Source: Allolobophora icterica (taxonomy: Eukaryota; Annelida; Clitellata; Crassiclitellata; Lumbricidae). Taken from it: 64,000 nt of DNA. The first letter of the stretch is position 1. The number at the start of each line of letters is the position of its first letter. The notes under the pieces are model-generated. The model made no database searches and had not been told where the DNA came from. It was given only the letters and a program-made list of their open reading frames with translations. Location of the stretch: NCBI GenBank assembly GCA_963556255.1, contig OY744607.1, positions 6,621,739 through 6,685,738 of the forward strand. The letters are read 5' to 3'. The translations under genes and the position numbers were made by a program. Positions 4,582 to 41,329 of this stretch are shown here, piece by piece.

Positions 4582-4624
<43 letters not shown>

Positions 4625-5256: not shown

Positions 5257-5454
<198 letters not shown>

Positions 5455-5584
5455 GCCTATAATTATTATTATGCTTGTAATATAAACGATGCCGTTATAA
5501 TTTAACAGTCGCGAAGCTAAAACAATGCGAAATTTGGTACTCTGTATACCTTCTAGACCAAAGTTACCCCAACTTACACCCTTG

Positions 5585-6722: not shown

Positions 6723-7310
6723 ACGTACATCTCCAACCTCTCGCGATCCTGCTTCATGCACATTCGTGACCTCCGACGCATCCGGCCCATGCTCGACCTT
6801 AAAACTGCCTCCACCACTGCTACCTCCATTGTTCATTCAAAGCTTGATTACTGCAATTCCCTCTTCCTCAACTATCTCGACTGAGAGTGTCACTACTCAT
6901 CCCAAGTTCTCCAATCGAGCCATATCCAACACAGCACCACGCCTCTGGAACGATCTCCCGTCTGAATTCCGCAGATTCTCGGTTCCTCCATCATCATTGC
7001 AACCTCTCCTCCATCCTCCTCCTCCTCACTTCCCGGGCTTTCCACTCAAACCTGAAGTATCGCCTTTTCAAGTACTTCTGCCCTCACTCATCTGATCCTC
7101 CGCTTTCCAATTCTCGCCCTAAACGACACCCGCCTTAACAGCTGCTCTGCCTCCTCTCTTGATCTGGCCATCTGGAACCGGACTCGGACCTCTTTTGGAC
7201 CACTCTCTGGAAAACCTCCTCTGATTTGATGTAGAGCTCGTGAATAGGCTGGTGCCCTGCGCTTGGTCTTCGATTGGCGCTTCAGAAGTTTGGAGATTAT
7301 GATTACGATT
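6723..7310 (+). pseudogene. LINE reverse transcriptase remnant, 3' part of the copy at 3905
   Basis: Immediately after the second CTCTAACC repeat the LINE continues with the segments RSCFMHIRDLRRIRPMLD (about 6747-6800), SIVHSKLDYCNSLF (about 6826-6867), then frameshifted APRLWNDLP (about 6939-6962) and KYRLFKYFC. This is the normal C-terminal order of CR1/L2-like ORF2. It ends in an untranslated tail with GTGAATAGGCTGGTGCCC and a final GATTACGATTA (about 7227-7310). That tail recurs at many other places in this window. Confidence 0.85.
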
Positions 7311-7861
7311 AACTTGCCCGACTTCTTCTCCAAGCGTCTGGTCTGAATAATACTATTGAGTCACCTCTTCTGACCTTTATTTGTAGGAACGCATTCCAGG
7401 TAACTATGGATCCAGCCTATACAATTTTAAATCATCATTTTGCTGTCTTTCATATGTTCCGGTAATCGAACATAATTAAAAGATCAGCTATCTGTTTTTT
7501 AAATGATAATTATTACGAATTAAGTTTAAGAAATAACTTCAAATAAGCTAGGATTAGAAGACTGAAGACTCAGTCGGGTACACGACAAGATCATGACGAG
7601 TCGACAACCTATAAAACGACTACGTTTCTGTTTTTTATTGTCGAATATTAAGAACTAACTTTATTTTGTTACATCACATTCTTTTGTATAACACAATTTG
7701 AACAGTGTTTGTTGTATAGTAAACTGAAATGTGTTAATACATCTTAGAAGTTACATGTAAAACAAGTTGAACAACACAATAAAGAGTCCTGCAAAAATCC
7801 ACAAAATGTAATGTTTACTTCAAAAACTTGCCTCGGCTTCAAGCATGATCATAGTTGCAGA
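7311..7861. other. Unannotated interval
   Basis: AT-rich DNA between the LINE tail and the element at 7862. No gene or repeat was recognised. Confidence 0.4.
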
Positions 7862-8779: not shown

Positions 8780-8879
8780 GTTGCAGACAGGCTTTTACAG
8801 AACATTCCAAAACATATTTAGGCATTACAAAATGCTGCCCTTTTGGCTTTAAAATGTTCTAAAACTCACCTTCGAGCAT

Positions 8880-9150
8880 CTACAATATAAAAAGTTTCTG
8901 GAGGTGATACCCCTGGACGCCCACAGTCCCCACTTAAAGGGAATGGGCTGAGGAGGGGATGGGAAGGGTTTGAGAAGGGGAAGGCAGAAAAATAGGGTGG
9001 CGATAGGACGGGACAGGGAAGGCAGGGATGGGCAAGGAGGGAAAAATGAGGGGTAAGGATAGGGAAGCGGAGAAGATGGGAGGGGAGAGCAGAGGCGTAG
9101 ATGGGGGGATTTGCCTCGTCTTGATTTTGCCTCTGGCTACGGGCCTGATA
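8880..9150. other. G-rich purine tract
   Basis: From about 8930 to 9085 the + strand is a G/A-rich irregular repeat of GGGAAGG-like units. It is followed by CAGAGGCGTAGATGG (9090), which looks like one hAT end without a matching partner. Confidence 0.5.
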
Positions 9151-19659: not shown

Positions 19660-20110
19660 GCGCATACATACATACATATTGACGTACCATACATACATGC
19701 ATACCGTATATACATGCACTCATACATACATACATACTTACATAGTTACATACATGCATACGAATATACATACATACGTGTATACATACATACATACATG
19801 CATACGATATATGCATCCATACATGCACTATTACATGCATACACACTTGAAACATACATGCATACACACTTGCATGCATACATACGATACATACATACAT
19901 GCATGCATGCATCCATACGATGCATGCATACATACATATGATACATAGACAGATACCTACATACATACATACATATATACGAACATACATGCATACATAC
20001 ATACATGCGATACACTCAAGCATACATATGATGCATGCATAAATACATACATGCATACATAATGCGATACATACATACGATACTTACATGCATACATACG
20101 ATACATGCAC
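19660..20110. repeat. (CATA)n microsatellite array
   Basis: About 450 bp of CATA/CATG tetranucleotide repeats with scattered interruptions. Confidence 0.9.
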
Positions 20111-20627
20111 ACACATACAGACAGACCGGAACAAGGTTGCAGTAGCACTGAAGCATAAATAGGATGACACAGCACACGGATGAAGCTTCACGCAAGGACG
20201 TTGTGTATTGTTGATTAATCACCGCAATGACGTCATGTCGGTTGCCCTGCACGCTAGACGGATATATAGCCACATTCAAACGCACACGTACATACCCTCA
20301 TGCATGCATAAATATGTACACAATGTATTCATGCATCGGCTGATGATTGGGCGTTACACTGGCGCTATGGTATCTGTTAATTACACACTCAACATATATA
20401 TTGCATTATATTGTATATGAGCATTCATGTGCATGCATGCTACATAAGCAATATTTACATACATTTATGCACAAACCAACACCCCTGTATTGTATTGTAT
20501 TGTATTGTATTGCATTGTACTGTTAATGAAAATGAGCATAGGCCTCTCATGCAGAGATGTCCGTTAATATATTCGCGGTTTTGGGTTTGCGGTTGAGAGA
20601 GAAATACGAATTGCTTTATTCTTCGGC
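20111..20627. other. Region upstream of the GPCR
   Basis: Holds a short (TTGTA)n run at about 20488-20515 followed by AGGCCTCTCATG, which looks like the reversed 3' end of a LINE. No confident promoter was identified; a 5' untranslated exon of the receptor gene could lie here or further upstream. Confidence 0.4.
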
Positions 20628-20629
20628 AG
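20611..20629 (+). promoter_or_regulatory. Candidate splice acceptor before the GPCR start
   Basis: A pyrimidine-rich TTGCTTTATTCTTCGGCAG ends in CAG 13 bases before the receptor ATG. It could join a 5' untranslated exon to the coding exon. It is judged by sequence only. Confidence 0.4.
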
Positions 20630-20642
20630 GACACCTGACACC

Positions 20643-21914
20643 ATGAATGCCTTCAACGATACCTCATTGCAGCGCAATGAAAAACATGATGTCACCACAT
20701 TTTTTCGTGCATCGAGTGACGTCATGTCGGACGCTTGGCTCCGCGCATTCTTCGTCTTCCTCTACGGCGCCATCTTTCTGCTCGGAATTTCCGGAAACTC
20801 TCTGGTCGTCTACGTTGTTCTCCGCAATCCCTCGATGCAAACGATCACGAATGTCTTCATCACGAATCTCGCCGTTTCCGACATCATGATGTGCTTGCTG
20901 GCCGTGCCCTTCACCCCGTTATCGGGTCTCCTGCAGTCCTGGGTCTTCGGGGAAGTGCTATGTCACGTCGTTCCGATGACCCTCAGCGTCAGCGTCTTTG
21001 TATCGACGCTCACTTCGACTGCCATCGCCGTGGACCGTTACTGTGTCATTGTCCATCCGTTCCGTCCTCGGATGAAGGTCGTCTGCTGCCTTCTGCTGAT
21101 CGTCGCCATCTGGACGGTGTCGGTGATCATCTCGCTGCCGCTGGCCATCTACCAGAAGGTGTCGTGGGACCCGGTGGGAGATGTCTTCCTGTGCCACGAG
21201 CTCTGGCCGACCATCACCGCCCGCCAGTTCTTCACGTTCGTCACTCTTGTGCTTCAGTACATCGTGCCCTGCAGCGTCATCAGCTTCTGTTACTGCAAGG
21301 TCTCCTTCGTGCTCGGCTGCCGCTCCAAGCCGAGTCTTGGTCTGGCGGGGACGAACCGTGACCGTATTCGGCGGGACATCCAACGGAAGCGACGAACGAA
21401 CAACATGCTGATCGCGATGGTTTCTATATTCGTCTGTTGCTGGCTCCCTCTGAACGTCGTTCACCTTACGACCGAGTACCTCGACGACATCGGCCGCTGG
21501 GAGTACTTCCTGCTCTTGTTCTTCGTCGCTCACGTCATCGCAATGAGCTCGACGGTGTATAACCCGTTCCTGTACGCCTGGATGAACTACAATTTCAGGA
21601 AAGAGTTCCGGCAGATTGTGCCCTGTCTCCCCGACCGAGCGTCGATGGGGCAACACCTGCGGAGTGCCGATAGCGACCGCAGAACGATAGCAACGGGTGG
21701 TTTGTCGACTCGACTGGCAACGCTGGACGCGACGCAGATTGCGATGAAAACCCGGCAGAGGTGTATTCCGTCAGCGGCCACCGCTAGTCTTTGCAAGAAG
21801 AGTGAACTGCGGCTGGCGACGGTCGTATATCGGGCGGACAGTCAGAAGGTCATCCTGATTCCGATGACAAACAGCTCGAATAAACTCGCAGGTTCACTCA
21901 ATGCACTGTGTTAA
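20643..21914 (+). CDS. Neuropeptide GPCR, NPF/NPY-receptor-like
   Basis: A 423-residue class A (rhodopsin-type) receptor in one uninterrupted frame. The N-terminus has an N-glycosylation sequon at N5. Seven hydrophobic segments carry the class A landmarks: GN at 51-52 (TM1), LAVSD with D80 (TM2), W100-x-FG and C107 before TM3, DRY at 131-133, W157 (TM4), C184 as disulfide partner in loop 2, P209 (TM5), CWLP at 266-269 (TM6) and NPFLY at 307-311 (TM7). Phrases such as MQTITNVFITNLAVSD, VPFTPLSGL and NYNFRKEF fit the invertebrate neuropeptide F / vertebrate NPY receptor group, whose members usually couple to Gi/o at the plasma membrane; ligand and coupling are inferred. Basic residues in loop 3 (238-251) and the C-tail are typical. 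The first ATG was chosen because it gives a normal extracellular N-terminus. A related prolactin-releasing-peptide or RYamide-type receptor is possible. Confidence 0.9.
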   Translation: MNAFNDTSLQRNEKHDVTTFFRASSDVMSDAWLRAFFVFLYGAIFLLGISGNSLVVYVVLRNPSMQTITNVFITNLAVSDIMMCLLAVPFTPLSGLLQSWVFGEVLCHVVPMTLSVSVFVSTLTSTAIAVDRYCVIVHPFRPRMKVVCCLLLIVAIWTVSVIISLPLAIYQKVSWDPVGDVFLCHELWPTITARQFFTFVTLVLQYIVPCSVISFCYCKVSFVLGCRSKPSLGLAGTNRDRIRRDIQRKRRTNNMLIAMVSIFVCCWLPLNVVHLTTEYLDDIGRWEYFLLLFFVAHVIAMSSTVYNPFLYAWMNYNFRKEFRQIVPCLPDRASMGQHLRSADSDRRTIATGGLSTRLATLDATQIAMKTRQRCIPSAATASLCKKSELRLATVVYRADSQKVILIPMTNSSNKLAGSLNALC

Positions 21915-22020
21915 ATTATTTTCTGTAATTGAAGTTAAGGATAATCGTTACTGTTTCAGTCACGTAAACCTGTGTGCACAGGCCACGCGAAATGAAGATG
22001 AATGAAACTTTCCTTTACAT

Positions 22021-22026
22021 AATAAA
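22021..22026 (+). terminator. Candidate polyadenylation signal of the GPCR
   Basis: Canonical AATAAA 107 bases after the receptor stop codon. Confidence 0.5.
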
Positions 22027-22257
22027 ATTACTACTATTGCTTAATTTTTTTCTGTCTGCCTCTCTAAGTTCTCGGGTTTATCGCCCGTTGATGTCGATCA
22101 CATGCTTAACTACCACACTGCTCACTGTCCCGCAGCCATTATTCAAAACGCAACTTGTGTGACCTTCCTGGTGATAGGCGATCCATCCTACAGACATTCA
22201 ATTTCCTTTCCAATTACTTGCTGCACGATGATCGCTATTCCTTATACCTGAGCGTTT

Positions 22258-22352
22258 ATGATCTACCCATACGCTGGTGATTAGGCTGGTATCCCGCGCT
22301 TGGCTTTCAAGTGGCGCTTTGAAGTTTGGAGTTTACGATTACGGTTCGATTA
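22258..22352 (+). mobile_element. LINE 3' tail fragment
   Basis: GATTAGGCTGGTATCCCGCG, then GTGGCGCTTTGAAGTTTGGAG and TTTACGATTACG follow the same order as the LINE end at 7227-7310. Confidence 0.65.
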
Positions 22353-22381
22353 CTGTCGCCACGATTATGATGCTTAAGATC

Positions 22382-22859
22382 CAGGGTGAGAATTGTCAAG
22401 AGTTGGAGGTTCAACCCCCCAGTCTTTCTTAGGGCCCCAGTTAAGTCTTCATTGCACCCCAAGGGGGTCATTTTCAACACCTCCACCACACCACACCCAG
22501 TTGTGCTAGTGTGATTATATTGTGCATATATTTTAGCATTTTCTTTCATAATTCCACCACACCACACCCAGTTGTGCTAGTATGATTATATTGTGCATAC
22601 ATTTTAGCATTTTTCTTTCAATATTCACTTTGTGGGTTATTAATAAATTAATGCTCTGGTTTATTGTAAGATTTGTGACCATGTGAACGGTTTACTAAAA
22701 AATTTGGTGATGTCATCACTAGACGGAGTTTAAGCATTCTATTGCATTTTTGAATTTTCTTAGTTTTCAAAATACGGATAAAATATACAACTCCGCGTGA
22801 ATCACACTCATTAAAGTCTACCTCCCCCCCCCCGTCTTTTTTCTACAATTCTCACACTG
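22382..22859. mobile_element. hAT-type non-autonomous element (478 bp), TSD TTAAGATC
   Basis: Ends CAGGGTGAGAATTGT and ACAATTCTCACACTG, flanked by identical TTAAGATC (22374-22381 and 22860-22867). The interior contains a 71-bp tandem duplication beginning CCACCACACCACACC (22483 and 22554). It is the longer relative of the MITE at 11574, in the opposite orientation. Confidence 0.85.
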
Positions 22860-22867
22860 TTAAGATC

Positions 22868-23913
22868 CTTTCGTAGCATCTCATCTCAAGTGCCAGCAAT
22901 CCGCCTTTGTCACTTCTCTGCAGCCTCCATGACCTTGACTTGCATAATCGAGGACACGTCCTGGTGATGTTACTTTGTTGTGCACACTAAGTCTAATCAT
23001 TTTAACCGATTTCATTAAGTTAGTCAATACTTTGCTTTATTTGCGAGACATTACGTGTTGCGATAGTAAACAATCAGAAATTTCGAAGATTTGCATTTTC
23101 CGTTCATTACTTTACATCTAACATATGAACCTGACAGAATCAAATCAAACTTATACATAAACACATACGTATAAACCTTCACCAGTTGTTTAATCAGTTA
23201 ATGATAATCGCTGATTTTCGATAAACATCAGGTTACAAGCAGATACAAATTGCTTTAAGTGCATGATTGCCTCTATAGGCGGATGTACTGATTCTCTGCT
23301 TAGCATCATTCTGCTAATATAATTAATTATCATTACAATAAAGTTCATCGCAAGTGTAAACGCAAGCTCGGAAATTTCTAAAGCGCTACTTTAAAGCTAT
23401 AGTGTAAAGTGTGCCAGCTCCTTCGTGAGCGTTGCGTCAAGTAGAAGGGGTTATCTAAAGATATAAAATGAAGAACAAAATCCGGTTGCCAGAAGAAAGA
23501 TGAAGAAGGGAACAGGGTAGCTTTGTTATTGTTGTTTGTGTTTATGGAAAAGAAAATGGAAGGCGGAGGTGTGGATGGATTAAAGTAAGATTTCGTGATA
23601 AAGTGAGACTTCATTTAGGTCTGAATGGAAAACCGCTGGAGGCTAGGTAGTAGAGCTTGAGAGAGGTGGCCATGCTAACTACAGTAGGCCTATACAATAT
23701 ACATATATATGTAGTATATAAAGCGCAATATATAGCATACATTTCTTCATTAAACGACAATAGACGAGATTGAAAATTTTAAAATTTTATCAGCTGATTT
23801 TTTCACATGCTGCCACAGTCCAAATTTCCGACAGATCTTTGTTCCTCAAACAAATAATATAGATGCAAAATAATCGTGTAAAATCCCGAAATATGTGCGT
23901 CAGGTGACCAACT
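22868..23913. other. Unannotated interval
   Basis: AT-rich sequence with no recognised gene, repeat or element. Confidence 0.4.
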
Positions 23914-24904
23914 ATATACACCGTGTCTCAAAATAAACTGTGCAAAATTGTTTCTGTCAGAACTTCGTCAAATTTCCATCAATTTAAAAAAATTTTGGTA
24001 GGTAGATGACAAAGTGGCTGAAATTTTATGCTATACATAAATTTTCCACCTCACCTGACTCATGTCACCGCACTACCTTGTTAAACACAGATGTACCAAT
24101 TTCTTATATAACGCTTAAATTTTAACAACTAACGTCTCGAAACTTGGCTGCACTGAAATCCATTTCATCGAGACAGGTGTCAATGTGAATGGGGCCTACT
24201 ATCGCGACAACCTTCTTGCCCAGAAGCTACTGCCAGACATACGCCGGATATCCCAAGGCGAGTTTTTTGTCTTTCAACAGGATGGCGCCCCGGCGCATCG
24301 AGCACGCGACACTGTCTCTTTCCTTGAGCGAGAAACGCCCGACTTCATACCTCCAACACTGTGGCCGCCGAATTCACCGGATCTTAACCCAGTCGACTAT
24401 AGCATATGGAGTGTGCTGCAGGAAAAGGTTTACCGCTCCAGGATAGCCAACGTCGACGAACTCAAAATGCGTCTGATCGACGATTGGGCGCGCTTTGACC
24501 AGTCGATCGTTGATGCTGCTATCAGTCAGTGGCGTTGCCATCTAAACGCTTGTGTCCGTGTAAGCGGGGCACATTTCGAGCACCAATTCTAACACTTTTA
24601 AGCAGATCTGTCATAACAATTAAAAACCCTGCTAAGTAAACCATATTTTACTTTACTGCGTGCTAATTAAGTCGTCAGATAGTTTGTTGCATGTAATAAG
24701 ATTTAGCGTTATATACGAAATTGGCACACCTGTGTTTAACAAGGCTCTTGACGTGAGTCAGGTGAGGTGGAAAATTTATGAATAGCATAAAATTTCAGCC
24801 ATTTTGCCATCTACCTACCAAAAATTATTAAAATTGGTGGAAATTTGACGAAGTTCTGACAGAAACAATTTTGCACAGTTTATTTTGAGACACGGTGTAT
24901 ATAT
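23914..24904. mobile_element. Tc1/mariner-type element with about 205-bp inverted repeats
   Basis: Left (23914-24120) and right (24701-24904) ends are long inverted repeats, starting ACACCGTGTCTCAAAATAAA and running through TTTGGTAGGTAGATG, GAAATTTTATGCTAT and TTCCACCTCACCTGACTCA. The flanks are TA-rich, consistent with insertion at TA, although the exact boundary is ambiguous. The interior keeps only the C-terminal half of a transposase, so the copy cannot move on its own. Confidence 0.9.
24125..24592 (+). pseudogene. Mariner-type transposase, C-terminal fragment (DD37D spacing)
   Basis: The frame is open from about 24125, immediately inside the left inverted repeat, to TAA at 24592. It lacks the N-terminal helix-turn-helix DNA-binding domain and most of the first catalytic strand. 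Conserved motifs are FQQDGAPAHRAR (second catalytic Asp at 24281-24283) and WPPNSPDLNPVDYSIW (third catalytic Asp at 24395-24397), with 37 residues between the two. The position of the first catalytic Asp, in the segment IHFIETG, reads Glu (24170-24172). The direct joint between the left repeat and mid-transposase indicates an internal deletion. The protein class cuts and pastes TA-flanked elements; this copy is expected to be inactive. The C-terminal half still has no stop, so the deletion may be recent. Confidence 0.9.
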
Positions 24905-25510
24905 CAATCAATCAGGTTCGTAAGTCTTTCGGTTATTTTCAATGCCCAGTTTCCAGTATGCAGATGCAAAATTTCGACGGTTTAGCTCATTCGAAAATTT
25001 TTAGGCTACTTTCTGCTTTACTTTCTTTAAAATACTGTACTGTCTTTAAGCAGATAAGTACCAGGTTCAAGCGATTCGTTCGATGGCAGTAAAAGCGATA
25101 AAAGTCAAATTCGTGCGGTTTAAACCTTGGAATACTCTCATATTAGACGTATCAAGTGCTAGCGTTTCGGCGAGTATGCAGATGTTTTGAAACATTAATT
25201 ATCGTGCTATAAATGCAGATTTCTTTAATGCTTATGAGCGTGTTCGTGTCCTGTTCAGAGACTTCCTTTATGCGTCAAACGTCCTCTGACTCAGGCTGTA
25301 GATTCTGGAACATCGTCGATTGGCACCTTCTCCACGTCTGTGTTCGCCTGCACAACGTACTTGTTATTGACGGGTGGTTTGGTTTTAACCTCGTCCAACG
25401 GGTTGCTGAATTCCACATCCTGCAAAAGAAAGCTTTCTTTGAAAAAGGATAAGCATTTATAGAATCTGTGGCGGCCTCGGTTTTGTAGTAGGCCCCTATC
25501 AATATTTAAT
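24905..25510. other. Unannotated interval
   Basis: No recognised gene or repeat; short open frames only. Confidence 0.4.
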
Positions 25511-25514
25511 TTAC

Positions 25515-25572
<58 letters not shown>

Positions 25573-25637
25573 TTATTTTATTTTTTTTTATTTTTTTTTT
25601 TTATTATTATTATATATTATTATTATCAGTAGTAGTA

Positions 25638-25683
<46 letters not shown>

Positions 25684-25701
25684 CAGTAGCAGTAGCAGTA
25701 G

Positions 25702-25732
<31 letters not shown>

Positions 25733-25768
25733 AGCAGTAGCAGTAGCAGTAGCAGTAGCAGTAGCAGC

Positions 25769-25799
<31 letters not shown>
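25515..25799. repeat. (ATT)n followed by (AGT)n/(AGC)n arrays
   Basis: An ATT array (25515-25572), a T-rich spacer, then AGT/GCA trinucleotides (25628-25799). The long leucine run on the - strand is an artefact of the repeat. Confidence 0.9.
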
Positions 25800-26489
25800 T
25801 CATCTTTATCATTATTCCTGGGGCCGACATATGATTCCCCGCGATCTGAAATAGCTCCGGAGAATTTCTAAAGGTCTGCTAAGCATTGTCAAGTTCAGGT
25901 AGAGAGATGGTGCTGCGAAAGGCGGCAGTAAGTATTAAAGCTTTGGATACCAGCTGTAAGGCGTTGCGAAAGATGGCGTCTGTGCTGTTACAACTACTAT
26001 TTCCACTCCTACTATTACGACTACTTCTACTACCATCACTTCCACTACCATTACTAATACTATTGCTACGACTATCATTATTATTTTTTATTGTTATTAT
26101 TATAGACAGCAGCAAAAAACATACGATGCTTAAAGCATCACTCGTTGGTCTACCACGGCTGAATCCAGAGCTGGAAGCAAAGTGTGTCACGAAAAGTTGT
26201 TTGTAATGAAATAGTCGTTATCGTAAGCCAAGCGCAGGGCATCAGCTCAATCCGCGAACTTCTTTAGCGTTACTGTATAAAACTCGTTGTAAAGTCTATG
26301 AGCTTGTCAAATTGCAGAGTGAGTGTGAGTGAAAGCAAAGGGAGGTCCAACATGTTGTCAAAGCATGTAACCGGCAAGAAAGGTCGCTAAGTCGTTACAG
26401 CTTCAGTTTTACATAATTATTACGGCCCAATTAGCCGGAATTCCAATTTATGACTGCGAGAGACATAGAGGCAGACTTTAAATAACTAT

Positions 26490-26665
26490 ATCTCTTGTAT
26501 CTTGACCTGGAACCAATTTTACTTTACCTGCCTATCAATTTCGTTTTGACTGAGCGCCTGTGAATCAATTGGTACCTGTGACTTCGTTTGACTTCGTTTG
26601 TTTGGACACTGTAGAAATCTCGAGATTAGGTTTACAGTGCCATTTGCCCGCACAGCCACCGCGCA
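26490..26665 (+). mobile_element. LINE 3' end fragment
   Basis: CTTGACCTGGAACCAATTTT, TTTTGACTGAGCGCCTGTGAA and CTGTAGAAATCTCGAGATTAG follow the same order as the ends at 47207-47330 and 56945-57070. Confidence 0.7.
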
Positions 26666-27415
26666 GAATCGTGCTTTTTCAGCTTCTCGGGAGCTGCGTC
26701 TGCTCCCCAGAACTCCCTCTGATACGTTCTAAACTATACTGAAAACTGTTTTATTTGGCCGTGCTGGAGTCGGGAGCACCTCTGTGTAGCCTCCTTGAAG
26801 AGGTGCTATAAAAATACTCTAATGAATGGATGAATGAATGAACAATTACTCTGAGTAAAAACTACAAATTAAAAGGCTTACGCAAGTTCTGCACCTGCGG
26901 AACCACACTTTAAATCCTGAAGCTCAAGATATATGGAATCACAATCGATCAGTTCCGCAGTTATATTAGAAGTCGGCGTCGAATCCGCAATATTGTAGGC
27001 CTCTTAAAAATTCTTCATATCGTTAATATCACTGAGGCCGTCTGAAACTTGTAGCACAAGCTTACCTTTTTGCCGACAGGCGTAGAATGGAGGTTTCGGA
27101 AGTAACGAACTGTCACCTGTAACGAAAAGACACAATAAATAACCATTTCAGGAAGGCTTACTACAATTGAATGCATAATTTTACCACACTTTTCAACAGA
27201 GAAAATATTAATTTATTCGTATACGGTCAATAGGTGGCAATACAGTACATTTCATTTACGGACTCATTGAATTGCATAATCACTCATTGCTTGCGTCAGT
27301 GATTTTCACCAGTTTCAGGGTTATTTCTGTTTTCACGCTATAGTTTCTAGTTTGTAATGGCAATGTTTGAGCTAATTAACAATTTAAACGGTTTTATTTT
27401 AGAAGCAACAGATTT
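26666..27415. other. Unannotated interval with a reversed retroelement tail
   Basis: At about 26780-26845 CTCCTTGAAGAGGTGCTATA precedes an (AATG)n run, resembling a retroposon tail. The remainder is unrecognised. Confidence 0.4.
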
Positions 27416-29073: not shown

Positions 29074-32000
29074 GATGATTATCACAGCTGCAGCAACGAA
29101 CATCACCAACGCACACACAAGCAGGATGATGGCGGTGACAGATAAAGGACGATAGTCGTCACAGGCCGATCCAACACAGGGGCTGCACTCGCACATTTCG
29201 CACCCGGTGCTGTCAGTTTTCCGTCCATAATAACAACTGATGGAACATACTTTTGCCGGGCAAGGATTGCATTCGCATATATCGCAACCGTTAATATTCT
29301 TCTTGAATCCATTTTCACAATACATAAGGCACTGAGACTGAGGACATGTGTCGCATTCGCATTTGTCGCATCCATTGGCATCTTTCTTGAATCCATTCGC
29401 ACAGAACATAAGGCACTGGGATCGAGGACATGGCTCACATTCGCATGTGTCACATCCATTGGCATCTTTTTTGAATCCATTCGGGCAGTACATTCTGCAA
29501 GTCGCTGGAGAACACGGATTACATTGACATGTCTGGCAACCATTGGAGTCGTTTTTGAATCCATTCGGACAGTACATATCGCACATCACCGGTGAGCAAG
29601 GATCACATTCGCATGTGTTACAGCCATTGGCATCTTTTTTGAATCCATTCGGGCAGTACATTCTGCAAGTCGCTGGAGAACACGGATTACATTCACATGT
29701 CTGGCAACCATTGGAGTCGTTTTTGAATCCATTTTCACAGTACATAAGGCACATCACCGGTGAACATGGCTCACACTGACATTTGTTGCAACCGTTGGCA
29801 TCCTTCTTGAATCCATTGGGACAGTACATATCGCACATCACCGGTGAGCAAGGATCACACTCACATTTGTTGCAACCGTTGGCATCCTTCTTGAATCCAT
29901 TGGGACAGTACATATCGCACATCACCGGTGAGCAAGGATCACACTCACATTTGTTGCAACCGTTGGCATCCTTCTTGAATCCATTCGGACAGTACATATC
30001 GCACATCACCGGTGAGCAAGGATCACACTCACATTTGTTGCAACCGTTGGCATCCTTCTTGAATCCATTGGCACAGTACATATCGCACATCACCGGTGAG
30101 CAAGGATCACACTCACATTTGTTGCAACCGTTGGCATCCTTCTTGAATCCATTGGGACAGTACATATCGCACATCACCGGTGAGCAAGGATCACATTCGC
30201 ATGTGTTACAGCCATTGGCATCTTTTTTGAATCCATTCGGGCAGTACATTCTGCAAGTCGCTGGAGAACACGGATTACATTCACATGTCTGGCAACCATT
30301 GGAGTCGTTTTTGAATCCATTCGGGCAGTACATTCTGCAAGTCGCTGGAGAACACGGATTACATTCACATGTCTGGCAACCATTGGAGTCGTTTTTGAAT
30401 CCATTCGGGCAGTACATAAGGCACATCACTGCTGAACATGGCTCACACTCACATTTGTTGCAACCGTTGGCATCCTTCTTGAATCCATTGGGACAGTACA
30501 TATCGCACATCACCGGTGAGCAAGGATTACACTCACATTTGTTGCAACCGTTGGCATCCTTCTTGAATCCATTGGGACAGTACATATCGCACATCACACG
30601 TGAGCAAGGATCACACTCACATTTGCTGCAATTGTTGGCATCCTTCTTGAATCCATTGGCACAGAACATATCGCACATCACCGGTGAGCAAGGATCACAT
30701 TCGCATGTGTTACAGCCATTGGCATCTTTTTTGAATCCATTCGGGCAGTACATTCTGCAAGTCGCTGGAGAACACGGATTACATTCACATGTCTGGCAAC
30801 CATTGGAGTCGTTTTTGAATCCATTCGGGCAGTACATAAGGCACATCACTGCTGAACATGTCTCACACTCACATTTGTTGCAACCGTTGGCATCCTTCTT
30901 GAATCCATTGGGACAGTACATATCGCACATCACCGGTGAGCAAGGATCACACTCACATTTGCTGCAATTGTTGGCATCCTTCTTGAATCCATTGGGACAG
31001 TACATATCGCACATCACCGGTGAGCAAGGATCACACTCACATTTGCTGCAACCGTTGGCATCCTTCTTGAATCCATTGGGACAGTACATATCGCACATCA
31101 CCGGTGAGCAAGGATCACACTCACATTTGTTGCAACCGTTGGCATCCTTCTTGAATCCATTGGGACAGTACATATCGCACATCACCGATGAGCAAGGATC
31201 ACACTCACATTTGTTGCAACCGTTGGCATCCTTCTTGAATCCATTGGCACAGTACATATCGCACATCACCGGTGAGCAAGGATCACACTCACATTTGTTG
31301 CAACCGTTGGCATCCTTCTTGAATCCATTGGGACAGTACATATCGCACATCACCGGTGAGCAAGGATCACATTCGCATGTGTTACAGCCATTGGCATCTT
31401 TTTTGAATCCATTCGGGCAGTACATTCTGCAAGTCGCTGGAGAACACGGATTACATTCACATGTCTGGCAACCATTGGAGTCGTTTTTGAATCCATTCGG
31501 GCAGTACATTCTGCAAGTCGCTGGAGAACACGGATTACATTCACATGTCTGGCAACCATTGGAGTCGTTTTTGAATCCATTCGGGCAGTACATAAGGCAC
31601 ATCACTGCTGAACATGGCTCACACTCACATTTGTTGCAACCGTTGGCATCCTTCTTGAATCCATTCGGACAGTACATATCGCACATCACCGGTGAGCAAG
31701 GATTACACTCACATTTGTTGCAACCGTTGGCATCCTTCTTGAATCCATTGGGACAGTACATATCGCACATCACCGGTGAGCAAGGATCACACTCACATTT
31801 GCTGCAATTGTTGGCATCCTTCTTGAATCCATTGGCACAGAACATATCGCACATCACCGGTGAGCAAGGATCACATTCGCATGTGTTACAGCCATTGGCA
31901 TCTTTTTTGAATCCATTCGGGCAGTACATTCTGCAAGTCGCTGGAAAACACGGATTACATTCACATGTCTGGCAACCATTGGAGTCGTTTTTGAATCCAT

Positions 32001-35000
32001 TCGGGCAGTACATAAGGCACATCACTGCTGAACATGTCTCACACTCACATTTGTTGCAACCGTTGGCATCCTTCTTGAATCCATTGGGACAGTACATATC
32101 GCACATCACCGGTGAGCAAGGATCACACTCACATTTGCTGCAACCGTTGGCATCCTTCTTGAATCCATTGGGACAGTACATATCGCACATCACCGGTGAG
32201 CAAGGATCACACTCACATTTGTTGCAACCGTTGGCATCCTTCTTGAATCCATTGGGACAGTACATATCGCACATCACCGGTGAGCAAGGATCACACTCAC
32301 ATTTGTTGCAACCGTTGGCATCCTTCTTGAATCCATTGGCACAGTACATATCGCACATCACCGGTGAGCAAGGATCACACTCACATTTGTTGCAACCGTT
32401 GGCATCCTTCTTGAATCCATTGGGACAGTACATATCGCACATCACCGGTGAGCAAGGATCACATTCGCATGTGTTACAGCCATTGGCATCTTTTTTGAAT
32501 CCATTCGGGCAGTACATTCTGCAAGTCGCTGGAGAACACGGATTACATTCACATGTCTGGCAACCATTGGAGTCGTTTTTGAATCCATTCGGGCAGTACA
32601 TTCTGCAAGTCGCTGGAGAACACGGATTACATTCACATGTCTGGCAACCATTGGAGTCGTTTTTGAATCCATTCGGGCAGTACACAAGGCACATCACTGC
32701 TGAACATGGCTCACACTCACATTTGTTGCAACCGTTGGCATCCTTCTTGAATCCATTCGGACAGTACATATCGCACATCACCGGTGAGCAAGGATTACAC
32801 TCACATTTGTTGCAACCGTTGGCATCCTTCTTGAATCCATTGGGACAGTACATATCGCACATCACCGGTGAGCAAGGATCACACTCACATTTGCTGCAAT
32901 TGTTGGCATCCTTCTTGAATCCATTGGCACAGAACATATCGCACATCACCGGTGAGCAAGGATCACATTCGCATGTGTTACAGCCATTGGCATCTTTTTT
33001 GAATCCATTCGGGCAGTACATTCTGCAAGTCGCTGGAGAACACGGATTACATTCACATGTCTGGCAACCATTGGAGTCGTTTTTGAATCCATTCGGGCAG
33101 TACATAAGGCACATCACTGCTGAACATGTCTCACACTCACATTTGTTGCAACCGTTGGCATCCTTCTTGAATCCATTGGGACAGTACATATCGCACATCA
33201 CCGGTGAGCAAGGATCACATTCGCATGTGTTACAGCCATTGGCATCTTTTTTGAATCCATTCGGGCAGTACATTCTGCAAGTCGCTGGAGAACACGGATT
33301 ACATTCACATGTCTGGCAACCATTGGAGTCGTTTTTGAATCCATTCGGGCAGTACATAAGGCACATCACTGCTGAACATGGCTCACACTCACATTTGTTG
33401 CAACCGTTGGCATCCTTCTTGAATCCATTCGGACAGTACATATCGCACATCACCGGTGAGCAAGGATTACACTCACATTTGTTGCAGCCGTTGGCATCCT
33501 TCTTGAATCCATTGGGACAGTACATATCGCACATCACCGGTGAGCAAGGATCACACTCACATTTGCTGCAATTGTTGGCATCCTTCTTGAATCCATTGGC
33601 ACAGTACATATCGCACATCACCGGTGAGCAAGGATCACATTCGCATGTGTTACAGCCATTGGCATCCTTTTTGAATCCATTCGGGCAGTACATTCTGCAA
33701 GTCGCTGGAGAACACGGATTACATTCACATGTCTGGCAACCATTGGAGTCGTTTTTGAATCCATTCGGGCAGTACATAAGGCACATCACTGCTGAACATG
33801 GCTCACACTCACATTTGTTGCAACCGTTGGCATCCTTCTTGAATCCATTGGGACAGTACATATCGCACATCACCGGTGAGCAAGGATTACACTCACATTT
33901 GTTGCAACCGTTGGCATCCTTCTTGAATCCATTGGGACAGTACATATCGCACATCACCGGTGAGCAAGGATCACACTCACATTTGCTGCAATTGTTGGCA
34001 TCCTTCTTGAATCCATTGGCACAGAACATATCGCACATCACCGGTGAGCAAGGATCACATTCGCATGTGTTACAGCCATTGGCATCTTTTTTGAATCCAT
34101 TCGGGCAGTACATTCTGCAAGTCGCTGGAGAACACGGATTACATTCACATGTCTGGCAACCATTGGAGTCGTTTTTGAATCCATTCGGGCAGTACATAAG
34201 GCACATCACTGCTGAACATGTCTCACACTCACATTTGTTGCAACCGTTGGCATCCTTCTTGAATCCATTGGGACAGTACATATCGCACATCACCGGTGAG
34301 CAAGGATCACACTCACATTTGCTGCAATTGTTGGCATCCTTCTTGAATCCATTGGGACAGTACATATCGCACATCACCGGTGAGCAAGGATCACACTCAC
34401 ATTTGCTGCAATTGTTGGCATCCTTCTTGAATCCATTGGGACAGTACATATCGCACATCACCGGTGAGCAAGGATCACACTCACATTTGTTGCAACCGTT
34501 GGCATCCTTCTTGAATCCATTGGGACAGTACATATCGCACATCACCGGTGAGCAAGGATTACACTCACATTTGTTGCAACCGTTGGCATCCTTCTTGAAT
34601 CCATTGGGACAGTACATATCGCACATCACCGGTGAGCAAGGATCACACTCACATTTGTTGCAACCGTTGGCATCCTTCTTGAATCCATTGGGACAGTACA
34701 TATCGCACATCACCGGTGAGCAAGGATCACACTCACATTTGCTGCAATTGTTGGCATCCTTCTTGAATCCATTGGCACAGTACATATCGCACATCACCGG
34801 TGAGCAAGGATCACACTCACATTTGTTGCAACCGTTGGCATCCTTCTTGAATCCATTCGGACAGTACATATCGCACATCACCGGTGAGCAAGGATCACAT
34901 TCGCATGTGTTACAGCCATTGGCATCTTTTTTGAATCCATTCGGGCAGTACATTCTGCAAGTCGCTGGGGAACACGGATTACACTCACATATCGGACAAC

Positions 35001-35069
35001 CACTGGAGTCGTTTTTGAACCCATTCTCGCAAAAAATTAGGCACTGGACAGGATTGCACGAAGTTGTTC
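29074..35069 (-). CDS. Giant membrane-anchored antistasin-repeat protein (internal exon)
   Basis: One exon of 1998 complete codons. After a split codon and three residues come exactly 70 tandem units of 28 residues (35058-29179), each with six cysteines spaced C-x4-C-x3-C-x10-C-x2-C-x-C and an NGFKKDANGC-type core. This is the antistasin-like domain pattern known from leech and Hydra serine-protease inhibitors, which usually have one to six domains. The array is followed by a partial unit (CVGSACDD) and a hydrophobic helix, LSVTAIILLVCALVMFVAAA, predicted to span the membrane. The exon starts after an acceptor (phase 1) and ends at GTAAGT (phase 0). The exon's own first ATG (34953) lies inside unit 2 and is not the real start; the signal-peptide exon was not found. 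Extracellular location with a single membrane anchor and protease inhibition are inferred. The + strand also shows a 1767-codon open frame here, a by-product of the repeat. Confidence 0.88.
29179..35058 (-). repeat. 84-bp coding repeat, 70 in-phase copies with higher-order structure
   Basis: All units are 84 bp without a single net insertion or deletion. Units 24-36 (33126-32035), 37-50 (32034-30859) and 51-63 (30858-29767) form higher-order blocks of 13, 14 and 13 units with almost the same order of variants, so recent growth was by blocks of 1092 or 1176 bp. The first unit and the last three units (68-70) are the most diverged. Confidence 0.9.
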
Positions 35070-35090
35070 CTGAAATCGTGAAATAAATGG
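35070..35090 (-). promoter_or_regulatory. Splice acceptor opening the antistasin-type exon
   Basis: The reverse strand reads CCATTTATTTCACGATTTCAG directly before the first cysteine-rich unit, a pyrimidine-rich tract with CAG. The exon then begins in phase 1, common for extracellular modules. Confidence 0.6.
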
Positions 35091-35697
35091 GTGTAGAATA
35101 GCTTGTACTTGAATTTATTTATTTCATTTAGTGTCAACGGGGCCTATTCGTGAGAGTGGTCAAACAATGGCGGTAGAAGAATTTCGAATCTACGATTTTT
35201 ATGTGACTGTCCTATTAATATGCCTCTTCTTTCAAAGCTATTCAGGATAGCTTGGTGTCGTCTTCGTTTGCTGATGGTGTTGCCAGTTTTTGATGGAGCG
35301 CAAAATCATTCAATGAACTCTGTGCGGTAGTGTTGGCCTGATTTACAAGACGAAGCACGGGAGCGATCTATATACTTCCTGACAGGCAGAGTAGTGGCAC
35401 ATTTATTGATGTAAGCGGATCTATTCTCAGAACTTTGAGAGCGCCATTACTTTGATGCATTAAATGTGAATCGATGACAGTTAAAAACAGATTCGAAATG
35501 CCGGTCATTTTCGGAGGTCAGGAACGACCTGCATGCGAGCTCGTTCTGTTGTATCGAATGGACCTGAAAGGCTATCTAAGGATGACGAGGATGATGAAGC
35601 AATTGCCTTCAGAACAGACGCAGTGGGAGAAGATTATAGAAGTATATTCCAGAGCCTTGGCTTATAAGAGAAAGTGCTGCTTACAAATCAATGACGC
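35091..35697. other. Unannotated interval (probable intron)
   Basis: If the antistasin-type gene has upstream exons, this is intron. No exon was recognised. Confidence 0.4.
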
Positions 35698-37008
35698 TTG
35701 AGGGAGTCGTTGGGAAGGTTCGAACAAATGCGGACGGCGGAGAGCGGGTTGTGCCTAATGCGGACGTCGGTATTTGAATTTCGCACAGTTACTTCAACAC
35801 AAATAGAGAGGGAACTTCCGGTGAACCAGGCTGGTTTTAGGAAATCACGAGGAACTAGATACCATATTGCCAACTTAAGGTGGATAATGGAACGGCAAAG
35901 GGAGTATGGACAAGAGGTGCACATCTGCTTCATTGATTATAGTAAGGCATTCGACTGCATTAACCACGATTTAATGTGGAAAACCCTACTTGAGATGGGA
36001 ATTCCGAAACACTTGATATGGCTATTAAGGGGACTATATGAAGATCAGATAGCGGTGATAAGAACAGAATACGGAGACACTGATAAATTCAATATCAAGA
36101 AAGGGGTGAGACAGGATGCATTTTGTCTCCATTCCTGTTTAACTTATACGCTGAAAGAATAATGAGAATGGCAGAAATGGAAGGGGTAAAAGAGGGAGTA
36201 AAAATTGCGGGAAGGACATTGAATAATCTTAGATATGCGGATGATACAACACTAATGGCAAAAAGAAAAGATGAGCTGATAGAATTAATAAGAAGGGTAA
36301 GGAGAGAAAGTGAAAAAGCTGGCTTACACTTCAACATAAAGAAGACAAAAGTCATGACAACAGCAGAATGGGATACTTTTGAGATTGACGGAGAAGAAAT
36401 AGAGGTGGTAGAAAGCTTCACTTTCCTGGGATCATTGGTTGAAAAAGAAGGAAAATGTGATACAGAAATAAAACGAAGGATTGCGATTGGGAAAGCTGCA
36501 ATGATTGGACTGGAAAAGATATGGAAGGACAAGCATGTGAGCATAAATACAAAAAAGGCTCGTGAGAGCCCTAACCTTTCCAACGGTTTTGTATGGTTGT
36601 GAGTCGTGGACAATGACAAAAGAACATGGAGAAAAAGGTCAACGCATGTGAAATGTGGATATGGAGAAAGATGTTGAGAATATCATGGACAGAGAAAAGG
36701 ACGAACGAATCAATACGAGTGGAGATTGGTGTCGAGAATGATGAGTCATTCAAACAAAAGGCGACAAGATCGAAGCTAGGATTCTTTGGTCATGTTATGC
36801 GATCTGATGGGCTAGAAAAGGAAATGATGTTGGCTTGTGGTGAGGGAAAAAAATACGGGGTCGACCAAGGAAGAAATGGATGGATGAGATTCACGATGTA
36901 ACTGGAATGAATTTGGAAGAACTAAGGGACATGACTTCGAATAGGAAGCAATGGAGAATGTTTATCATGACGATCGCTAGAGCTCCAGGAGTTGACAGCA
37001 CAAGGTGA
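35698..37008 (+). pseudogene. RTE-type LINE reverse transcriptase remnant
   Basis: Motifs in order: LPVNQAGFRKSRGTR (about 35813-35860), FIDYSKAFDCINHDL (about 35930-35975), IKKGVRQ (about 36096-36116), SPFLFNLYAE, NNLRYADDTTLMA with catalytic YADD at 36234-36245, FLGSLVEKEG, ACEMWIWRKMLRI (about 36644-36684), LGFFGHVMRSDGLEKEMML and GRPRKKWMDEI (about 36869-36900). This matches the RTE/BovB-type ORF2. Frame changes near 36115 (one base missing), about 36560, about 36640 and about 36855 make it a pseudogene. The endonuclease domain is absent, so it is 5'-truncated. Confidence 0.88.
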
Positions 37009-37289
37009 CAAGGTGACTTCAACACAGCCTTTGCATTGAACACCATTCAGTCACAAAGCAGAGGGTTTGTACTGCTTTAGATCTACTTTGATTCCTTAGC
37101 TCGACGCGGAAGTGTTCAAATCCCCGTCCCCTTCTTGGCACATCGAGCTCTGCGATATCCACAGGGTAATCTAAACTAAACTTGGGACTGTGATGGAAGA
37201 GTATAGTACGTAATGCCAGCAGCGGGCAGTGCGGACAAGGAGAGGGAGAGGTTAAAAATATAGGTCATTTAGATGTCATGTGTCATAAT

Positions 37290-37672
37290 GCTGTCGCGAC
37301 AAATGGTTCACGGACAAGTGGTTCACCGACAAATGGTTCACGATCTTCCAGCTTCTAGATTGAACTACATTTTCATCGAGAATCCAACTTCTGCCTTGAG
37401 CCATATTTTCATCGATCTTCCAGCTTCTAGTTTAAGCTATATTATTACCACGCTGATCGAGCTTCTAGTTTTAGCTCCATTTTCATTTTTTTTAAACAAA
37501 CTAGAAGCTGGATGACCGATGAGAATATACATTAAACTAGAAACTGGATGAGCGATGATGAAAATGTAGCTGAAACTAAAAGCTGGAAGATCGTGAACCA
37601 TTTGTCTGTGAACCATTTGTCCGTGAAACTTTTGTCGGTGAACATTTGTCGTGAACCATTTGTCGTGGAACC
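37290..37672. mobile_element. Foldback (TU-like) element 3, TSD GTCATAAT
   Basis: Identical 8-bp direct repeats GTCATAAT flank the element (37282-37289 and 37673-37680). Each end carries tandem copies of the 15-bp unit GTTCACCGACAAATG in inverted orientation (37300-37350 and 37590-37670). The inside holds inner-domain repeats of about 36 bp with TTCCAGCTTCTAG, in both orientations around a centre near 37490. The perfect target duplication defines the boundaries of this family best. Confidence 0.85.
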
Positions 37673-37937
37673 GTCATAATAGGTCGTTTTGCGGACGTCT
37701 TCTATGGATGGCAACTAAGTATCTGGAAATAATCAGCCAGCATGCGGAAGATGTCAAATCTTAACCGAAACTTGACGAGCCATGACAGAGGCTGGTAGGC
37801 ATGTGTCTTGCATGATTAGCGGACATAGGTGTATATGATTGTGTTTCGATTTGTTTATTTTACAAAGTCGTGCGAATTTTTTCAGTTATCCGAATATGGT
37901 CGCTGTGCAAGTGAAATTTTTGGACAGAAATTGGGGG

Positions 37938-38110
37938 ACGCAGTAGCCGAATTGTTTGAACGCTCGCCTTGCGATGCGTAGATCAGGCCTGCGGGTTCTA
38001 GCTTCCCTGTGACGATTACTGTGCATGCAAGTCCTTCATTCACTATTGCTCAGCGCCATCGATTGATACTTGGTCACTTGATAGTGGCGCTTAATAAATG
38101 CTCCGCAACA
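37938..38110 (+). mobile_element. tRNA-derived SINE, copy A
   Basis: Starts with CAGTAGCCGAATTGTTTGAA (box-A-like) and GCGGGTTCTAGCTTCC (degraded box B). It then shares AAGTCCTTCA and TTGCTCAGCGCCATCGA with copy B at 38405. It ends with GTGGCGCTTAATAAATG and a short A/T-rich tail. Confidence 0.65.
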
Positions 38111-38404
38111 ACAGTAATAATAATTACGTCTTCGGTGACTGAGCTAATGATGGGATTTGAGAAACTGGAAGACACACGTGTGTTTGCTTGTTTGAGAAAC
38201 AGCGTTGACAAGAACAATAGGAATTGTTTGGATGTGTGGTGACACTGAATTTTGGGTAGATATTAGCCGAGAAATGAGGGATCGATGCATGACTACCTAA
38301 AGAAATTATTTGGCATTTTATGTGGTATGTTCTTCCGTGACTGTGAATATTGCACGAGTCCAATTTGGATTCTGTGTACTACTGAGTCGCCTACTCCTAC
38401 TGTG

Positions 38405-38545
38405 GGGCATGGTAGCCGATTGGATAGAGCGATCGGCCTGTGATGCGGAGATTACGGATTCGAACCTCCGCAGAAGCGGTCACTGTGTAGGGACCCTGAG
38501 CAAGTCCTTCACTCACAGTTGCTCAGCGCCATCGAAGTTCTGTAA
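38405..38545 (+). mobile_element. tRNA-derived SINE, copy B
   Basis: Box A TAGCCGATTGG (38413-38423) matches the TRGCNNANNGG consensus, and GGATTCGAACC (38456-38466) is a near-consensus box B. The body GAGCAAGTCCTTCACTCACA and TTGCTCAGCGCCATCGA aligns with copy A. The tRNA head is not a complete cloverleaf. Confidence 0.75.
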
Positions 38546-38993
38546 TGTGTGTGCACTTCTGAACTTTGGAAGGAGGGAAATATCAAGCAAATTTGTACTG
38601 CACTTTGCTATCATTATTATTAGTAGTGTTACAGAGGTTTTATATAGCGCTCTTTCAAGGTGTATATACTCAGGAGGGCTACTATCAGGTGTATTGTCAT
38701 ACTTTAACTGGGTTTTTTGTATTTTTCGGCCAAAAATTACGTTTAATTCCTTTTTCGTGGCTCATTGCTTTATGTTACGTCTTTGCGTGAAACTACATTT
38801 CTGTTTTGTTCAATCCGATAAGGAAATGCCAACGATTGTCGTAAATTGTTTCGTCCTCAGGCGAAACTTAATTAAAATACACTGCTCAACGACAACACTA
38901 TTGCGATCAGATGTATGTACAGTACACCAGAGTGTGGGTGCGCAACTGTTATAATAAGAATATACCTACTTACTCACTTAGATACTGAAGAGG

Positions 38994-39012
38994 TTGTTGT
39001 TGTTGTTGTTGT

Positions 39013-39094
<82 letters not shown>

Positions 39095-39102
39095 AATGGT
39101 GG

Positions 39103-39180
<78 letters not shown>

Positions 39181-39183
39181 CGA

Positions 39184-39211
<28 letters not shown>
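38994..39211. repeat. (GTT)n-(GAT)n-(GAC)n microsatellite
   Basis: About 215 bp of trinucleotides switching unit by single-base changes. The Asp- and Met-rich frames are artefacts. Confidence 0.95.
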
Positions 39212-39214
<3 letters not shown>

Positions 39215-39609
39215 TGGCGATGACAATGACGATGACGAAAACGATTACGAATATAGCCAGTAAGCTTGTGTTATTGTGATTTCTATAGCAACAACGGTTG
39301 ATTTCTCCTCCTTCAAGCCATATGTGTCAAAGTTAGGTATTGCTTAATTAAATCTGGTGATACCAACTGATTGAGGAAATTTCGCTTACCATTGGAACTC
39401 TGTGCGTCGACAACTGTTGACCAGCTGAGTGGCCCAAGAATTGCCGACGTCAAAAGGACGAGACAGGCTTTCATCTTACCATTCGTCCTCCTACAATGGA
39501 AAGGAAAACTGCTGTATTGCTCCAGTAGTATCTCCGCTTATCTATGGGGCTGGGCCAGATAACGTTTATGTGAGTCACTTTTATAACTGGAAAATCCGGA
39601 ATTGAAATG

Positions 39610-41329
<1,720 letters not shown>

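Follow-up and report, generated by a model that had tools for sequence, protein, structure and literature searches.

Antistasin-type protease inhibitors are built on a domain of ten cysteines joined by the bonds 1-3, 2-4, 5-8, 6-9 and 7-10, in which Arg or Lys at P1 goes with trypsin-like targets and Met with chymotrypsin and elastase (PMC6265900, in its accessible part). Annelids have multi-unit members, including a leech cocoon protein with six antistasin repeats and EGF domains, and oligochaete antistasins with two to six domains; the available text of PMC12838937 mentions no membrane anchor for them. In CRIM1, type I membrane topology is combined with four antistasin-like domains, an IGFBP motif, six VWC domains and a 76-residue tail (PMC11922885, likewise in part). 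Many tandem PF02822 units are found in the database relatives P0001 (1,261 aa, with 28 units by pattern and 24 as Pfam stretches), P0003 of Asterias and P0004 of Patiria (20 and 21 units by both counts, with WAP domains) and P0005 of Dimorphilus (18 by pattern, 12 by Pfam), none of which shows a strongly hydrophobic helix past residue 60. P0010 (1,411 aa; 12 units by pattern, eight Pfam stretches) has one such helix near its C-terminus. Antistasin proteins with long arrays, and others anchored in the membrane, are already known, and the premise of the sequence-only reading, that these inhibitors are normally secreted and carry one to six domains, is not supported as worded. By pattern, 12 relatives hold 6 to 28 units (Pfam counts fewer in some), in a search that scored the 8,000 candidates with the most words in common with the first 500 residues and was confined to proteins between 0.55 and 1.75 times as long as the query, so that shorter orthologues could be missed; CRIM1 is a membrane protein, and P0010 has its strong hydrophobic helix.

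The locus described here, in a window of 64 kb of Allolobophora icterica DNA, is a variant with 70 units, 2.5 times the largest of the 12 relatives by pattern (70 against 28; 70 against 24 Pfam stretches), all of one length and in a protein predicted to sit in the membrane. P0001, P0003, P0004 and P0005 differ in their irregular spacing, more varied P1 residues and at most 28 units, and P0010 in having fewer, irregular units interleaved with other sequence and another tail. The titles and abstract openings of the open-licence PMC literature searched contained no membrane-anchored antistasin array of such size, and querying with the end of the protein (last units, helix and tail; residues 561-720 of a spliced query of 720 residues) gave zero matches among 69 candidates.

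The array lies in one exon on the minus strand, placed correctly in the sequence-only reading, which gave no strand. Its 5,996 nt comprise 2 nt of a split codon and 1,998 codons, and the earlier count closes exactly: 3 residues (TTS), 70 units of 28 residues and 35 further residues, with zero indels and zero stops. Every unit is 84 nt long and keeps all six cysteines, at unit positions 1, 6, 10, 21, 24 and 26 in 70 of 70, with two-residue linkers between units throughout. A regular expression applied to the spliced protein also counts 70 units, while Tandem Repeats Finder reports 67 copies of period 84 at 29360..34990 (86% matches, 0% indels); 24 units are distinct as protein and 29 as DNA. 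The proposed family is confirmed by Pfam, which assigns PF02822 Antistasin at 1,768.8 bits in 70 stretches (cut-off 21.2). The units share this profile and the six-cysteine spacing with antistasin, hirustasin, guamerin and poeciguamerin; antistasin is the best solved-structure match of a four-unit query (E 1.6e-11), and the C-terminal half of poeciguamerin resembles a unit by eye (accessible part of PMC10342134). Two further Pfam entries for the exon, DUF4116 (27.1 bits against a cut-off of 24.9, no single stretch passing) and DUF2718 (13.9 bits, below cut-off, no stretch), were taken as chance matches.

Table 1. Features of the array locus (positions in the 64-kb window)
Feature	Position	Strand	Remarks
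TATA-box-like TATAAAAG	39578..39585	-	103 nt upstream of predicted start codon; consensus match only
Exon 1, coding part (predicted)	39390..39474	-	Predicted signal peptide MKACLVLLTSAILGPLSWSTVVDA, then QSSN and the opening base of a Gly codon; phase-1 donor gtaagc
Intron 1 (predicted)	35070..39389	-	Phase 1; broken reverse-transcriptase fragments on + strand at 35695..36602
Exon 2	29074..35069	-	All 70 antistasin units; most of the predicted transmembrane helix
Array, 70 x 84-nt units	29179..35058	-	Unit 1, 35058..34975; unit 70, 29262..29179
Higher-order repeats	29767..33126	-	Three blocks, of 13 (units 24-36), 14 (units 37-50) and 13 (units 51-63)
Predicted transmembrane helix, exon 2 part	29074..29145	-	LSVTAIILLVCALVMFVAAAVIII; hydropathy 3.43 over 19 residues
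Exon 3 (predicted)	27066..27116	-	VTVRYFRNLHSTPVGKK; 17 codons, phase 0 on both sides; juxtamembrane, basic residues after helix
Exon 4 (predicted, weakest)	25291..25419	-	DVEFSNPLDEVKTKPPVNNKYVVQANTDVEKVPIDDVPESTA and stop; acceptor ctttcttttgcag/G, score only 2.1
Possible poly(A) signal ATTAAA	25224..25229	-	61 nt past stop; weak alone

The units are six-cysteine half-domains and not the ten-cysteine domain of the leech inhibitors, since the four-cysteine N-terminal half is absent and the two-residue linkers leave no room for it. In comparison with the family at large, the array consists of 70 copies of this half only, the protein has a membrane helix, and the P1 residues are mostly Asp. The last three bonds published in PMC6265900 (accessible part) fall within the six-cysteine half, so that a unit could be self-contained, with bonds 1-21, 6-24 and 10-26 expected inside it if that pattern holds, whereas the leech paper, in its available text, doubts that halves of the antistasin domain fold independently (PMC12838937). 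AlphaFold, run on an eight-unit segment with an input alignment of 15 array segments, returned a pLDDT of 34 and a pTM of 0.17, a failure that leaves a rod shape without support from the model.

The hydrophobic helix noted earlier stands out clearly: the 19-residue hydropathy reaches 3.43 at residues 2009-2027, while no segment within the array exceeds 0.79. Candidate exons for the signal peptide and tail were located in the DNA on either side, exons 1 and 3 by scans. With strict settings (a phase-1 donor after a hydrophobic N-terminus; hydropathy at least 2.3, donor at least 5), exon 1 is the sole match in the 64 kb on either strand, its donor scoring 5.0, right at the limit; looser settings give 2 or 3 further matches. 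Upstream of the array, exon 1 was the only match. The cleavage point in exon 1 is our own reading, and an acceptor-like site opening at 39490 (score 7.4) makes an intron in the 5' UTR possible. Exon 2 begins at the acceptor ...cgatttcag/GA. The consensus donor claimed for its end has the gtaagt core (CATC/gtaagtg), but the matrix score is only 1.8, owing to the exon side. Exon 3 (acceptor 7.5, donor 7.0) is the only phase-0 internal exon with both scores at least 5 between 29 and 20 kb, and one of two on both strands of the whole window, the other being 8947..8870. Exon 4 was chosen by eye and is the fourth longest of 20 acceptor-plus-frame candidates (score at least 2, 27060..20000); a rival acceptor at 25436, 17 nt upstream, scores 3.9 and opens another frame of 53 codons.

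The four predicted exons have compatible phases and join in frame into 6,261 nt with a single terminal stop. By hydropathy and reading, the predicted product of 2,086 residues would be a type I membrane protein, in which exons 1 and 3 of the scans supply the signal peptide and the basic residues behind a single hydrophobic helix; the predicted tail has about 59 residues and the mature chain a predicted pI of 4.8. If the exon 2 donor is not used, the frame runs on for 26 residues to a stop at 28993, with the first basic residue 13th past the exon end and not fourth, as in exon 3. The earlier basic residue leads us to prefer the spliced C-terminus; the unspliced one stays a rival, the more so with a donor at 1.8. 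We count the rarity of exons 1 and 3 in the whole-window scans in favour of the gene model, and the weak exon 4 acceptor, the exon 2 donor and the borderline exon 1 donor against it.

In its predicted type I topology, its multiple antistasin-like units and a cytoplasmic tail that is short, the protein resembles CRIM1 (PMC11922885, in part), and its ectodomain might accordingly bind growth factors or matrix while the tail signals or directs trafficking. We regard such a role as improbable: a tail of about 59 residues, beside the 76 of CRIM1, speaks for it, but Pfam lists neither IGFBP nor VWC domains for exon 2, and intron 1 contains no phase-1/phase-1 exon at scores of at least 4.

Part of the array expanded recently, since any two of the three higher-order blocks agree at 99.2-99.7% of 1,092 nt, unit 49 being left out of the comparison. 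Unit-to-unit identity peaks at lags of 13, 14 and 27. Copy number is likely to vary among individuals. The invariant cysteines, together with a dN/dS of 0.17 pooled across all unit pairs, indicate that the bead has been kept, whereas most nucleotide differences among the recent blocks alter the protein (3 nt with 3 amino-acid changes, 9 nt with 6 and 8 nt with 5), so that the recent copies bear no sign of purifying selection. Blocks so similar are hard to assemble, and the copy number could be an assembly error or the array an unexpressed, decaying gene; we consider this extremely improbable in view of 1,998 stop-free codons, six cysteines in every unit, the pooled dN/dS, splice-compatible exons on both sides and a C-terminal, membrane-proximal end that matches once in the 1.12-Gb assembly.

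Unit position 7, which we take to be P1 as in antistasin, aligns with the Arg of antistasin (1skz) and the Met of guamerin (3bg4). For guamerin, this agrees with the Met printed at P1 (PMC6265900, accessible part); Leu, we infer, may be counted as Met-like. P1 is Asp in 41 units, Arg in 15, Leu in 13 and Ser in one, so that only 28 of 70 carry Arg or Leu. Asp is a poor P1 residue for common serine proteases. A 70-fold form of the protease trap that the sequence-only reading had offered as one possibility is unlikely with Asp in 41 of 70 units. The classes are ordered along the array as Leu, Arg and a run of Asp units, with an Arg unit following 11 of the 13 Leu units, and each of these classes uses a single codon almost throughout (GAT in 41/41 Asp, AGA in 15/15 Arg and CTT in 12/13 Leu units), a uniformity due in part to block copying.

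It is conceivable that the Asp units inhibit a protease preferring an acidic P1, making the array an inhibitor of three specificities. Asp is enriched here over units in sampled paralogue loci (1/76) and database relatives (12/199), its codon is uniform, and of the four residues by which the Asp consensus differs from the Arg consensus, three fall at positions 4, 5 and 7, just before and at P1. Against the Leu consensus, however, only one of seven does, homogenisation of the array alone can fix one codon, and common serine proteases accept Asp poorly at P1; we hold the proposal to be very improbable. The differences between class consensus sequences are too few to claim reactive-loop hypervariability or positive selection. 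A fuller version, in which the ordered Leu, Arg and Asp units, partly copied as 13- and 14-unit blocks, form a membrane-tethered inhibitor whose Asp heads, instead of being spacers, add a third active specificity directed at a protease with acidic P1 preference, from the worm or its microbes, with copy number and head order varying among individuals, cannot be more probable than the Asp specificity it includes and is at least as doubtful.

We tentatively favour, at just short of an even chance, a predicted type I membrane string of mostly non-canonical beads carrying repeated Leu-Arg inhibitor pairs. If spliced and expressed as modelled, in whichever tissue, the 2,086-residue protein would begin with a signal peptide, carry an ectodomain of 70 six-cysteine antistasin-type beads with linkers of two residues between them, cross the membrane by a single helix and end in a tail of about 59 residues, its ectodomain forming a long, disulfide-rich, acidic string held at the cell surface. 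Inhibition would probably reside in the Leu-P1/Arg-P1 pairs, acting on chymotrypsin/elastase-like and trypsin-like proteases respectively, with the intervening Asp-P1 units mainly structural spacers. The missing four-cysteine half, the doubted independent folding and the 41 Asp units count against the inhibitory part of this proposal. They leave room for a purely structural or adhesive surface string, in which disulfide beads serve as a tough scaffold (coat, mucus anchor or adhesion) with no need of inhibition, a rather unlikely reading that nevertheless draws on the missing classical P1 in 41 units, the linkers and absence of indels throughout, and antistasin domains reported, in the available parts of these sources, from sea-star footprint proteins (PMC9382459), limpet adhesive mucus (PMC7333891) and limpet shell matrix (PMC3374290). 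The limpet-mucus authors, however, took their antistasin/WAP protein to be a protease inhibitor (PMC7333891, same part), and an ordered Leu-Arg pair kept 11 times with nearly one codon per class speaks against a pure scaffold, although block copying explains part of it. The ordered P1 classes offer a natural experiment on whether half-domains inhibit and on what follows when a family of beads loses its P1 residue.

Two minor observations concern the surrounding DNA. An antisense open frame spans the array on the plus strand (29780..35086); we do not take it as a gene, because a stop-free 84-nt period yields one for free. Rfam gave zero matches at gathering scores in the 64-kb window. A neighbouring receptor gene points to a probable annelid host: among the best 120 of its 880 matches, the highest-ranking that bear an organism name come from Paralvinella (71% identity, 77% of the query covered) and Ridgeia (71%, 76% covered), followed lower down by Owenia, molluscs and nemerteans.

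The exon arithmetic of the sequence-only reading closes on the minus strand (3 + 70 x 28 + 35 = 1,998 stop-free codons), and a profile search places the units in the family it had named (Pfam Antistasin, 1,768.8 bits, 70 stretches). Each of the 70 units is 84 nt long with all six cysteines complete, and together they comprise 24 distinct types at the protein level and 29 at the DNA level. Four units compared with solved structures had antistasin as top match; a DUF4116 match to the exon, barely above the cut-off and without a stretch of its own, was taken as chance. The predicted transmembrane helix is likewise supported by hydropathy, with all 12 top-scoring windows listed falling on it (best 3.43; array maximum 0.79). 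Of the 422 cysteines in the 1,978-residue predicted ectodomain, 420 lie within units; the predicted pI of the mature chain is 4.8.

Because no Met codon occurs in the array's open frame between the upstream stop and the array, the remaining exons were sought. When both strands of the window were scanned for a hydrophobic N-terminus that runs into a phase-1 donor, candidate exon 1 was the single match, its donor score lying right at the limit and relaxed settings giving two or three further matches. Its ATG is preceded at 103 nt by a TATA-like box and at 16 nt by an acceptor-like site, so the 5' end of the gene model is only provisional. Candidate exon 3 is the one phase-0 internal exon in 29-20 kb whose acceptor and donor both score 5 or more, and one of two such exons in 64 kb, both strands counted; its VTVRYFRNLHSTPVGKK would lengthen the helix and place basic residues on the inner side. 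The candidate tail exon, picked by eye, is fourth by length among 20 candidates at its acceptor threshold, and 17 nt upstream a rival acceptor that opens a different frame reaches a higher score (3.9). Joined, the four exons yield a 6,261-nt coding sequence with a single terminal stop and 2,086 predicted residues.

Features of the predicted array gene and its surroundings
Feature	Position	Strand	Remarks
Candidate exon 1, signal peptide	39474..39390	-	MKACLVLLTSAILGPLSWSTVVDA/QSSN-G, phase-1 donor
Array exon (exon 2)	35069..29074	-	acceptor ...ttcag/GA, donor CATC/gtaagt
Candidate exon 3	27116..27066	-	encodes VTVRYFRNLHSTPVGKK; phase-0 internal
Candidate tail exon (exon 4)	25419..25291	-	acceptor score 2.1
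(TA)113 microsatellite, perfect	39613..39838		27 nt upstream of exon 1 TATA-like box
Tandem repeats, 15- and 36-nt periods	37298..37672		within intron 1
Reverse-transcriptase pieces, two frames	35695..36602	+	RVT_1; within intron 1
Mariner-type element (our reading)	23913..24903		DDE_3 match in 24119..24592 (+)
7-transmembrane receptor frame, long	20568..21914	+	Pfam 7tm_1, 184.9 bits

What could such units do? Unit position 7 aligns with Arg in antistasin and Met in guamerin, and we take it to be P1, the inhibitor contact position, in agreement with the guamerin Met. At this position the array has Asp 41, Arg 15, Leu 13 and Ser 1, the 41 Asp units being copies of each other and hence not independent counts. 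Asp occupies P1 in 1/76 units of eight sampled same-genome paralogue loci (Arg 34/76, Lys 7/76) and in 12/199 units of 12 database relatives (Arg 48/199). PMC6265900 pairs P1 Arg or Lys with trypsin-like targets and P1 Met with chymotrypsin or elastase, and gives the bonds of the ten-cysteine domain as 1-3, 2-4, 5-8, 6-9 and 7-10; an array unit corresponds to the last six cysteines, which in that domain carry the last three bonds. A recent leech paper doubts that the domain halves fold independently (PMC12838937), which counts against a self-contained six-cysteine unit. Judged by P1 residue, the greater part of the array does not resemble the classical inhibitors of trypsin, chymotrypsin or elastase, which leads us to prefer, as close to an even call, a surface string in which repeated Leu-Arg heads would be separated by Asp units as spacers. 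A purely structural string is possible but distinctly less probable; a working Asp specificity seems very unlikely, and we consider it highly improbable that the array is an artefact. In a paralogue locus of the same genome (L009), a frame at 4300..6150 carries 16 antistasin units with P1 Arg in 7/16, and a frame that we read as Kunitz-like (7148..7408) lies about 1 kb downstream.

The P1 order of units 1-70, with spaces added by us, is LRDDDDDDDD LRDDD LRDDD LRD LRDDD LRRDDDDD LRDDD LRRDDDDDD LRDDD LRRDDDDD LRDR LLS. Over 1,092 nt, and with unit 49 omitted from the 37-50 block, units 24-36 and 37-50 are 99.7% identical, 37-50 and 51-63 99.2%, and 24-36 and 51-63 99.3%; unit-to-unit identity peaks at lags 13 (16/53 pairs identical), 14 (9/52) and 27 (10/39). 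Copying within an array is expected to leave the end units most diverged, and the greatest divergence from consensus, in unit 1 and the last three units, fits this expectation. A dN/dS of 0.17, pooled across all unit pairs, indicates that the bead has been maintained; the few differences among the three recent blocks are mainly amino-acid changes, and thus give no bead-conservation signal there.

Neither array length nor membrane anchorage, which the sequence-only reading had thought undescribed together, is novel alone. Among relatives, P0001, P0002, P0004, P0003 and P0005 have 28, 24, 21, 20 and 18 units by pattern (24, 17, 21, 20 and 12 by Pfam stretches); CRIM1 is a membrane-bound antistasin-like protein (PMC11922885), P0010 is membrane-bound by hydropathy, and P0012 has a less marked hydrophobic stretch at its end (2.1). 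Since long arrays and membrane-bound members are both known, neither feature singly makes a new kind. A CRIM1-like receptor is an unlikely reading of the array protein. The literature describes oligochaete antistasins of 2-6 domains and a cocoon protein with six repeats (PMC12838937), and antistasin domains in adhesive (PMC9382459), mucus (PMC7333891) and shell-matrix (PMC3374290) settings. No comparable 70-unit, Asp-majority, helix-bearing array was found in the protein relative searches or the literature searched; as far as these searches reach, the novelty lies in the combination of 70 indel-free units, mostly Asp P1 and a membrane helix.

In the assembly (1,117,693,669 bases, 328 contigs; window at C6:6621739-6685738), a query of the last unit, helix and read-through had one match, the array locus, and further antistasin clusters lie on several contigs (150 of 362 candidates scored). 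Among the matches listed, the best organism-named relatives of the neighbouring receptor are annelid, which makes an annelid host probable, and several relatives are named neuropeptide Y or prolactin-releasing peptide receptor. The mariner-type element, flanked by 155-nt inverted repeats that are 95% complementary, lies about 0.4 kb past the predicted end of the array gene. In intron 1, the consensus units of the 15- and 36-nt repeats resemble each other's inverted copies.
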